From the NCBI GenBank assembly GCA_032881465.1, contig CP126168.1, forward strand, positions 1,984,001 through 2,048,000: a DNA stretch of 64,000 bases, given 5' to 3'. Source of the stretch: Parvibaculaceae bacterium PLY_AMNH_Bact1 (GTDB lineage Bacteria; Pseudomonadota; Alphaproteobacteria; Parvibaculales; Parvibaculaceae). Numbering within the stretch: position 1 is the stretch's first letter; the number at the start of each line of letters is the position of its first letter. Below, piece by piece: positions 11,663 to 14,078 of the stretch. The notes below the pieces were generated by a model. The model was not told where the DNA came from and searched no databases. It saw nothing but the letters and a program-made list of their open reading frames with translations. The position numbers and the translations under genes were made by a program.

Positions 11663-12128
11663 ATTGCTCTGCCGTTCCTTTAGTTCATCCAAACACAAAA
11701 CCGCGTGCTACCGGGAAGTCCCTTAAGGTTGCACACGGCTCTTAGACACATGAGGCATTCGCTTAATGCCAGCGTCTAAACTTGCAGAGGACCCTGAGAA
11801 AACCCAGGGTCATGCCCCAGTCCTTATCGTCGATTTCGGGCGTCAGCGTTTAGGTTGATCGGCTATCAGTACCGGTAACCGCCTACTGCCTGGCGCGAAA
11901 GTTGGCGGAACCTACCGTCGCCCCTGGGGGGCGTCAACCCCGAGTATTAAGAAAATGGAAGATTTTGTGCGGTTTTTCGTCTTCCCAAGCACCCTGACCA
12001 GAATATCGTGACAACTGCAGCTCAAGAAGGCGGTTTTCACCCCCCAAACACCGATCATCCGCTTGAAAGTGTGCCTTTGACTCAAGGGAACCGGCCATTT
12101 GATTCCCCTCCTCATTTACATTTTTGCC
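11663..12128 (-). promoter_or_regulatory. Upstream region of rpsL (no gene seen)
   Basis: This roughly 470-nt stretch between divergent rpsL and the metallo-beta-lactamase-fold gene has no convincing coding frame; a 67-codon minus frame at 11912-12115 has no recognisable features. It should contain the promoter of the ribosomal superoperon, but no clear -35/-10 pair was found by eye. A perfect 7-bp inverted repeat (GACCCTG/CAGGGTC, 11790-11796 and 11805-11811, 8-nt loop) would form a hairpin in the rpsL leader RNA. Its role is unknown. Confidence 0.35.
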
Positions 12129-12177
12129 TTGTGGATTTTAATTTCACACTTATATTCGTTTAAATGAATATAGGAGA
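12129..12177 (+). promoter_or_regulatory. Promoter with ATTC-N8-GAAT operator (persulfide-repressor type)
   Basis: A -35-like TTGTGG (12129-12134), 16-nt spacer and TATATT (12151-12156) precede the gene at 12184. TATATTC-N8-GAATATA at 12151-12172 is a palindrome with perfect 7-bp arms and a TTTAAA centre. It overlaps the -10 and abuts the AGGAGA ribosome site at 12172-12177. It contains ATTC-N8-GAAT, the motif I recall for SqrR, an ArsR-family persulfide sensor related to BigR. Occupancy would block polymerase and ribosome loading. No ArsR-type regulator gene is present in the window. Confidence 0.55.
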
Positions 12178-12183
12178 TAGGGA

Positions 12184-13089
12184 ATGCCAGCCATAAGCTC
12201 AACCGCCGCGAAGTCCGGTACAAGATCCGTTTTGAAACCAGACGTCCTCTCTTATTTTGACGAGCCAACCAACACCATCACCCACATTGTCACCGATCCG
12301 GAGACAGGCTCGGCAGCCATCATTGACCCTGTCCTTGATTTCGATCAGGCCTCAGCCCGGACGGGCACCAAATCCGCCGATAGGCTGATCGAAACTGTGA
12401 AAGACAAGAACCTCAAGGTTGAGTGGATTTTGGAGACACATATTCACGCCGACCACCTGACAGCCGGCCATTACTTAAAAGAACAGCTAAATGCACCCAT
12501 CGGTGTCGGCCGAAACATCTCTACCGTTCAGAAGACGTTCAATCCTGTTTTCCACCAACCCTACCCTGTTCCCGACGATGGTCGGCCCTTCGACCACCTG
12601 TTTACCGAGGGTGAGAAATTCAGGATCGGCACCCTGGAGGCGTCCGTGATGGCGACACCAGGACACACCCCTGCCTGTGTGTCTTTCCTCATCGGTGACA
12701 GTGTCTTCGTTGGAGACACTCTGTTCATGCCTGACTACGGGACCGCCCGATGTGATTTTCCCGGTGGCGATGCGGGTATGCTCTACGATTCCATAGAGCG
12801 GCTCCTCAACCTGCCGGACAACACCCGCATGTTCCTCTGCCATGACTATCCCCCAGCAGAACGCGAGCCCAAGTGGGAGACCACGGTTGGCGAACAACGC
12901 AACCACAACATTCACATTGCCAACCGCGCTCGAGACGCCTTTGTGGAAATGCGCGAGGACCGAGACAGTGGCCTAAACATGCCCCAACTCATCTTCCCAT
13001 CCCTACAGGTCAATATACAGGCAGGCGAGCTGCCGCACGCGGAGGAGAACGGTGTCCAATATCTGAAAGTTCCGCTCAATCAGTTCTGA
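12184..13089 (+). CDS. MBL-fold hydrolase, persulfide-dioxygenase/Blh-like
   Basis: The 301-residue metallo-beta-lactamase-fold protein has THIHADHL at residues 85-92 (the HxHxDH metal motif), GHTPACVSF and VGDTLFMPDYGTARCDFPGG. Relatives include persulfide dioxygenases (ETHE1/PDO) and the BigR-controlled Blh proteins, which oxidise glutathione persulfide to sulfite using one iron. There is no rhodanese domain. The operator overlapping its promoter supports a sulfide-detoxification role. Its 3' end overlaps the convergent DUF4344 gene by 10 nt. The fold is certain; the exact substrate is inferred. Confidence 0.85.
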   Translation: MPAISSTAAKSGTRSVLKPDVLSYFDEPTNTITHIVTDPETGSAAIIDPVLDFDQASARTGTKSADRLIETVKDKNLKVEWILETHIHADHLTAGHYLKEQLNAPIGVGRNISTVQKTFNPVFHQPYPVPDDGRPFDHLFTEGEKFRIGTLEASVMATPGHTPACVSFLIGDSVFVGDTLFMPDYGTARCDFPGGDAGMLYDSIERLLNLPDNTRMFLCHDYPPAEREPKWETTVGEQRNHNIHIANRARDAFVEMREDRDSGLNMPQLIFPSLQVNIQAGELPHAEENGVQYLKVPLNQF

Positions 13090-14078
13090 TCGCCAGAAGA
13101 CCGATGGATCGCTGAGCTGGCACACCCAAAACTTTCCCCATAAAGCCGCCGCAAACCAGCATTGGCGCAAACAACAACCGCGCTGCGGCTCAAAAACATC
13201 TCTGACTTCGCAAGGAAAACATCGAACAGCTCATAGCAAAACACAATCTCAGAGACGTTGCGATTGTAGTAAGCCTCAGCGCTGCCTGGGCAATTGTCAA
13301 AGAAGAGCCGAACCGGTTGCGGCCAGGCAAAGAACTCTGATGTTCTAGATGCAATCTCTTGTACGAGCCCCGACTCAATCAGCCACCCGCGCACCATTTC
13401 ATGGCGCGGATTTCGCGTCGCCTCATACTCGACCACTATCCCATTGTAGGGCACCAGTGTGCTCTCGCTACGCGCAAAGGAACTCAGCAACCAAAGGTTT
13501 GCCTCAAAAGCTTGGTTGTAGGCTTGCTCACAATCAAAGCCCCTTTCCGCCGGCAACATGTCAGTATCCAGAAGAAAAGAAAGCTCGTCCGGGTTTGCGC
13601 CAAAAAGGAGGCAGTTCACATTGTAGAACCGCTGAATGGCAAGCGAATGGCTGTCCCAGAAGGCATGAGCACTCGGACCAGACGCACTTTCTTCTTCCTC
13701 CCACTCTGACAACCACTCAACCGAGACCATAAGCAGCTTGTTCATCGCAGTCGGGTTGATATCGGTATTGTGGCGAAGGATCATGAAGGTGGTCGCTATC
13801 TGATCTGCAGCGTCCTCTTCCCGTCCAAACAATGGAATAGGAAACTGATGGATCAGTGCATGCCCGATTTCATGCAGCAATGTGAATTCGACATTGGCAA
13901 GAACAAAATCTCTTAAGACTTGCTCCCGCTCTTCGCCGCTCGGCTCTTTAGGCACCAGGTCATTAGCAGCAACAGGGGCGACGACCATCAGGTAACAAAG
14001 CACGGCAAAAAGCAAAAAGCCGCCGCGTCGAAACGCAGCGGCTTTCTGTCTCAAGACTGGCATCATCGCCGCAACCAT
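13080..14078 (-). CDS. Secreted DUF4344-type putative metallopeptidase
   Basis: The 332-residue protein has an N-terminal hydrophobic signal at about residues 18-38 (FLLFAVLCYLMVVAPVAA). It carries a zincin motif, HEIGHALIH, at about residues 69-77, with acidic residues (EEDAAD) about ten residues later as a candidate third ligand. This layout matches DUF4344 metallopeptidases, whose substrates are unknown. The ATG shares one base with the rpoC stop, so it is probably read from the rpoBC transcript; a second ATG four codons in is possible. It converges with, and overlaps by 10 nt, the MBL-fold gene. Confidence 0.75.
   Translation of the reverse strand: MVAAMMPVLRQKAAAFRRGGFLLFAVLCYLMVVAPVAANDLVPKEPSGEEREQVLRDFVLANVEFTLLHEIGHALIHQFPIPLFGREEDAADQIATTFMILRHNTDINPTAMNKLLMVSVEWLSEWEEEESASGPSAHAFWDSHSLAIQRFYNVNCLLFGANPDELSFLLDTDMLPAERGFDCEQAYNQAFEANLWLLSSFARSESTLVPYNGIVVEYEATRNPRHEMVRGWLIESGLVQEIASRTSEFFAWPQPVRLFFDNCPGSAEAYYNRNVSEIVFCYELFDVFLAKSEMFLSRSAVVVCANAGLRRLYGESFGCASSAIHRSSGDQN

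Follow-up and report, generated by a model that had tools for sequence, protein, structure and literature searches.

The dioxygenase gene and the palindrome in front of it

In the stretch of DNA analysed here (the window, 64,000 nt, positions 1984001-2048000 of the genome), a gene for a dioxygenase of the ETHE1/persulfide dioxygenase (PDO) type is preceded by a 22-base palindrome, which overlaps its proposed promoter. The features of this region, in window coordinates, are as follows:

12129-12134, plus strand: proposed -35 hexamer TTGTGG (weak), read by eye; its TTG columns are invariant in 7/7 genomes registered on the site
12151-12156, plus strand: proposed -10 hexamer TATATT, within the left operator arm, read by eye; columns invariant in 7/7
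12151-12172, no strand: putative operator palindrome TATATTC-N8-GAATATA, 10/11 pairs, conserved in the genus
12164-12166, plus strand: ATG within the operator, at the expected (inferred) transcription start, read by eye; out of frame with the dioxygenase here
12173-12176, plus strand: Shine-Dalgarno-like GGAG abutting the operator, read by eye
12184-13089, plus strand: ETHE1/PDO-type metallo-beta-lactamase-fold gene, 301 aa, from profile and structure matches; a convergent gene follows

The 301-aa product matches known enzymes over its full length, with THIHADH, PGHT and GDTLF present in the alignment, and among solved structures it matches 4ysk, which we take to be a characterised bacterial PDO (E 3.8e-99), and human ETHE1 (4chl, E 1e-18). 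Against the model of Blh (NF040641), a protein defined by DUF442 and dioxygenase domains together, it scores 389.3 bits, below the cut-off of 625, and covers profile positions 137-423 of 423 only, that is, the dioxygenase half. Since the DUF442 sulfurtransferase part is absent, the product is, judged from its full-length match and metal-binding motif, a stand-alone ETHE1/PDO-type dioxygenase and not Blh. A search of plasmids for the enzyme returned 664 records, every one below 60% identity, and has no bearing on the finding. The gene that converges on the dioxygenase gene (13080-14078, minus strand) encodes a DUF4344 putative metallopeptidase, and DUF4344-like frames seem, by eye, to adjoin the dioxygenase gene also in the genus genomes G004 and G006.

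The palindrome, TATATTCGTTTAAATGAATATA, was confirmed at 12151-12172, where it reads TATATTC-GTTTAAAT-GAATATA with its central eight bases. An inverted-repeat search gives two arms of 11 nt without a gap, 91% complementary, and reports no other inverted repeat in window positions 11700-12250. An earlier note, made from the sequence of the window, had described a palindrome overlapping the -10 and meeting the ribosome site of the gene at 12184, and both sequence and coordinates hold. Its comparison with the SqrR motif also stands, the site having the ATTC-N8-GAAT form that is deduced for SqrR of Rhodobacter capsulatus in the accessible part of the source (PMC9774250). This core, at 12154-12169, is found once in the window against 1.50 expected, which is not above chance, and it was therefore dropped as evidence by itself. 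The 14 arm bases are more selective, with one match in the window at 0 mismatches where 0.05 are expected at up to two (5/100 shuffles had one) and two exact matches across the 3.74-Mb genome, in which the core occurs 35 times as against 10 for the pattern read backwards.

The -35, the -10 and the transcription start of the dioxygenase gene are a plausible by-eye reading of the sequence, in which TTGTGG and TATATT are separated by a spacer of 16 nt and GGAG directly follows the right arm, 8 bases before the ATG at 12184. A generic promoter scan did not report this promoter, its single match there being on the minus strand. At the predicted 5′ end of the mRNA, the AUG opens a frame of 10 codons (12164-12196) which overlaps the start of the gene. 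Among the seven genus genomes, the operator ATG shares the reading frame of the dioxygenase in G001, G002 and G003 but not in G000 (the genome under study) and G004, and G005 and G006 lack it; an upstream frame is thus not conserved.

Conservation in the genus and a candidate ArsR regulator outside the window

Judged column by column across the seven genomes, it is conservation that gives the strong evidence for the palindrome. The enzyme and an ArsR protein, described below, are both present in all of them (G000-G006, the present one included), and the site in front of the dioxygenase gene retains 14/14 arm bases in five genomes and 13/14 in G005, while G006 has a degenerate 10/14 site at the usual place plus a 12/14 site 35 bp upstream. 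When the genomes are registered on the site, the arm columns are identical on average in 6.64 of 7 genomes and the central eight columns in 5.5, as compared with 3.8 (-70 to -31), 5.2 (-30 to -1) and 4.2 (25 downstream) in the flanks.

The earlier note had stated that no repressor gene is present in the window, and in fact none of the nine PF01022 (ArsR) genes found by profile search in the genome, a single contig of 3,741,076 bases, lies inside it. The SqrR/BigR homologue with two conserved cysteines for which that note proposed a search was found elsewhere, at G000:C1:622084-622383, 1.37 Mb from the dioxygenase gene; because it is encoded away from the window, control would be exerted in trans. 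This candidate regulator has the ArsR winged helix (PF01022, 49.9 bits, cut-off 22) and cysteines at 30 and 96 in its own numbering, 66 residues apart, in the second and last helix; the pair is present in the 7/7 genus proteins and both residues align with the cysteines of HlyU and BigR. Its nearest solved relatives are, in order, HlyU, BigR, NolR, YgaV and SqrR (E 8e-21 for the BigR structure 3pqj and 4e-14 for the SqrR structure 6o8k). With 95.4 bits against the 155 of the NCBIfam BigR equivalog cut-off, it is by profile score a relative of BigR and not BigR proper.

A one-domain rhodanese (PF00581) is encoded divergently from the ArsR gene, and the same pair is found in 7/7 genus genomes. 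The ArsR gene has a site of its own, with an ATTA-N8-GAAT core spanning the start codon (622071-622092, locus L033), which differs from the palindrome at 3/14 arm bases. Only this one among the nine ArsR genes of the genome has an 11/14 site upstream; the others score 7 to 10, the next-best one having 10 with 4/8 core bases. A score of 11 arose by itself in 48/5000 random 220-base stretches of the window (15 more contained the operator itself), and such a score alone is not rare enough to convince; here again it is conservation that does the work. The site is present in 7/7 genomes as TAAATTA or TATATTA-N8-GAATATA/T, with the ATG inside and 11 to 13 of 14 bases.

Beyond the genus, the regulator and the enzyme are often neighbours. 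Of the 60 relatives searched (61 genomes with the present one), 33 that do not belong to the genus encode the enzyme at full length (>200 bits), and in at least 16 of the 33, counted by hand from the listed match coordinates (G008, G010, G012, G015, G017, G022, G024, G025, G026, G028, G029, G031, G033, G036, G039 and G047), an ArsR gene of the same kind is divergent from the dioxygenase gene at a distance of 200 bp or less; in G037 and G060 it is nearby in other orientations. G012 has ArsR, rhodanese and TauE-like frames together beside the dioxygenase gene (names by eye), and G018 has ArsR, a rhodanese (by eye), an SQR-like frame (NCBIfam below cut-off) and the dioxygenase within about 7 kb. 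Across 80 other dioxygenase loci, the fetched flank holds an SqrR-like ArsR in 28, with the cysteine pair in 20. The SqrR-like ArsR of eight dioxygenase loci (L044, L048, L060, L073, L104, L106, L107 and L117) does not have the cysteine pair at the 66-residue spacing, and the signal may therefore differ there.

The two observations that, according to the earlier note, would count against its proposal were the lack of an ArsR/SqrR homologue and the lack of conservation. Within the genus the homologue is present and the palindrome lies upstream of the orthologues, with 13-14 of 14 arm bases in 6/7 genomes and a degenerate form in the seventh; beyond the genus, on the other hand, the exact site is lost, the full 8/8 core being found between -300 and +45 in only 1/80 dioxygenase loci, a locus within the genus, and 7/8 core bases in 12/80. 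The simplest reading of these comparisons would be that the genus parted the dioxygenase gene from the regulator gene and kept both joined by the operator.

The note had also suggested a wider sulfide regulon, which did not emerge. At up to two mismatches, the full palindrome occurs at 39 places in the seven genomes (12 for the reversed control), of which 7 are at the dioxygenase gene, 6 at the ArsR gene and 26 elsewhere. The latter were rejected as further members because they show no non-coding recurrence: four pairs are shared by two genomes, each within an open frame of at least 155 residues, and at this threshold no promoter apart from those of the dioxygenase and of ArsR/rhodanese is shared by three or more of the seven genomes. 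The second exact TATATTC-N8-GAATATA of the genome (G000:C1:2935555-2935576; locus L026, 1501-1522) lies upstream of a short frame, amid integrase- and relaxase-like frames (by eye). Away from sulfur genes and not recurrent, it was not retained as a regulon member either. Of the sqr and PDO genes at which the earlier note would have taken a co-occurring site as support, the PDO gene has one, and no sqr was recognised. A type-III-SQR-like query from G018, itself an NCBIfam match below cut-off, gave E 2e-4 or weaker in 4/7 genus genomes, and among the 36 PF07992 matches of the present genome none was named SQR in the 15 whose N-termini were read or the 6 scanned with NCBIfam.

A probable split persulfide switch and its alternatives

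The explanation that best accounts for the site, its conservation, the family and cysteines of the regulator, its own related site and the linkage in relatives is, with high probability, that the palindrome is the operator of the SqrR/BigR-type ArsR at 622084-622383, which would repress both the promoter region that it shares with the rhodanese gene and, acting in trans, the dioxygenase gene. When reduced, the ArsR dimer would cover the -10 and the start region of the dioxygenase gene and prevent transcription from the start proposed above. Persulfides or polysulfides, formed when sulfide is present, would link its two cysteines and release the protein, inducing the dioxygenase, which would oxidise glutathione persulfide to sulfite. 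A second target of the same ArsR would be the spacer that separates its gene from the divergent rhodanese gene, whose product presumably moves sulfane sulfur. The persulfide chemistry of this proposal is taken from SqrR, BigR and HlyU as far as the consulted portions of the reports describe it (PMC9774250, PMC10451225, PMC10509353). Against the proposal stand the BigR cut-off that the regulator misses, the fact that its nearest solved relative, HlyU, is an activator, the three arm bases at which the ArsR site of the present genome departs from the palindrome, a score that random stretches also reach, the degraded site of G006, and the PDO of R. capsulatus, which is stated to be free of SqrR control.

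AT-rich palindromes commonly serve as operators, the window contains the core by itself no more often than chance predicts and the second exact copy has no sulfur genes near it, all of which would suit an operator that belongs to some other regulator (another ArsR, a TetR, MarR or similar) and resembles the SqrR site by accident. We judge this unlikely, as it would make coincidences of both the similar site that spans the start of a two-cysteine ArsR gene in 7/7 genomes and the pairing of ArsR and dioxygenase genes in relatives. The conserved block could also consist of promoter and ribosome site only, with an incidental palindrome, given that the -10 lies in the left arm and the right arm abuts GGAG; however, GAATATA in the right arm is neither a -10 nor a Shine-Dalgarno sequence, yet each of its bases is common to 6 or 7 of the 7 genomes, which makes this account very improbable. 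That the self-complementary sequence acts as an RNA hairpin in the 5′ leader is scarcely credible, because there is no loop between the arms and a transcript directed by the -10 in the left arm would begin within the palindrome and lack that arm.

The operator of the two-cysteine ArsR thus being the preferred reading, the system is very probably a switch of a known type whose parts lie far apart in the chromosome, an arrangement found in close relatives too. The comparisons that follow refer to the known systems as they are presented in the accessible parts of the cited papers. The description of the dioxygenase as a classic Blh/PDO target, made in the earlier note, is borne out for Blh, which is a target of BigR (PMC5823870), and does not extend to R. 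capsulatus, where sqr and a rhodanese are stated to be under SqrR control and the PDO (rcc02976) is not (PMC9995734). In Xylella fastidiosa and Agrobacterium, as proposed here, a two-cysteine ArsR repressor controls an ETHE1-type sulfur dioxygenase and a rhodanese-type activity belongs to the set, but there BigR and Blh form one operon and Blh is fused to the DUF442 sulfurtransferase, whereas here the dioxygenase gene is unlinked, its product is without DUF442 and the rhodanese is separate (PMC5823870). The SqrR regulon of R. capsulatus shares with the one proposed here the ATTC-N8-GAAT site, the scattered targets and a rhodanese target (PMC9774250, PMC9995734); sqr is a main target there and PDO is not, while here PDO would be the target and sqr was not recognised (PMC9995734). 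In Acinetobacter baumannii, a two-cysteine BigR controls, as the ArsR would here, a persulfide dioxygenase, PDO2, which is however encoded in a yeeE-yedE-pdo2 operon, and FisR is the primary sulfide regulator (PMC7315123). HlyU of Vibrio, the nearest solved relative of the candidate ArsR, has the same cysteine pair and its DNA binding is abolished by persulfide, but it is an activator of hlyA, with helix SALSQHL and an ATTA-type site (PMC4330345, PMC10509353). By comparative evidence a lone dioxygenase gene is in this way tied to a regulator 1.37 Mb away, and a small, complete persulfide regulon (repressor, rhodanese, dioxygenase) can be proposed in a group in which no recognisable sqr was found.

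Start codons inside operators and the recognition helix

The start codon that lies inside the ArsR operator has counterparts in a comparison of 155 ArsR genes of the same kind, 30 from relatives and 125 from matches of a 385-genome class sample (Alphaproteobacteria), whose upstream regions were searched at a threshold of at least 10/12 outer bases, blind to the two inner bases that distinguish ATTC/GAAT from ATTA/TAAT. A site at this threshold was found in 69 of the 155. In 23/69, the seven genus genomes among them, an in-frame ATG occupies exactly site positions 14-16 and the proteins begin with MNI, MNV or MNL. In 33/69, a hexamer that begins with TTG precedes the site by 16 to 18 nt, as compared with about 1.2 expected per spacer. 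If the left arm holds the -10, the first transcribed base would fall at the operator ATG, and leaderless mRNAs are therefore predicted. A literature search of limited reach found no paper on leaderless SqrR-type genes; a precedent for a repressor on a leaderless mRNA is AcuR of Rhodobacter sphaeroides, an autorepressor with an operator overlapping the promoter, although it belongs to the TetR family and responds to acrylate, as far as the accessible text goes (PMC3017554). For Escherichia coli, moreover, AUGs at the very 5′ end of messages that also carry a Shine-Dalgarno site have been described, according to the portion of the report that was available (PMC4965119).

The inner bases vary with the recognition helix. 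Where the helix could be read (68 sites, locus L278 being left out because of its length), proteins with SAxSQHL have A..T in 26/35 and C..G in 0/35, and proteins with other helices have C..G in 13/33 and A..T in 3/33. Three known regulators serve as anchors, and their sites, as given in the accessible parts of the sources, agree with this pattern: SqrR, with helix AVSQQL and ATTC-N8-GAAT (PMC9774250); HlyU, with SALSQHL and the site TAAATTAATTCAGACTAAATTA (PMC4330345, PMC10509353); and NolR, with SALSQHL and (A/T)TTAG-N9-A(T/A) (PMC8960804). The raw counts are strong but may reflect shared descent, as the tree holds a single supported independent pair, and a helix-to-operator code is for the moment a lead.

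A joint reading, which we put forward tentatively as a real possibility falling somewhat short of probable, is that many SqrR/BigR-like repressors of Alphaproteobacteria are translated from leaderless mRNAs and have an operator half-site that doubles as the opening codons of their gene (ATGAATAT, Met-Asn-Ile), so that the dimer and the ribosome would compete for one element, and that residues of the recognition helix (SAxSQHL versus SQQL and others) would set ATTA/TAAT or ATTC/GAAT. In the genus, the dioxygenase operator would keep this geometry, with its ATG at the predicted 5′ end, after parting from the regulator. If this is confirmed, autoregulated SqrR-type genes could be recognised simply by their MNI start, and their targets could be predicted from the recognition helix.

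A set of 36 proteins from other classes yielded only 7 sites at the same threshold, one of them with an embedded start, which does not demonstrate the architecture outside Alphaproteobacteria. The inner bases of these seven sites tell against a helix-to-operator code: C..G was found in none and A..T in six, three with SAxSQHL and three with SSxSQHL helices.
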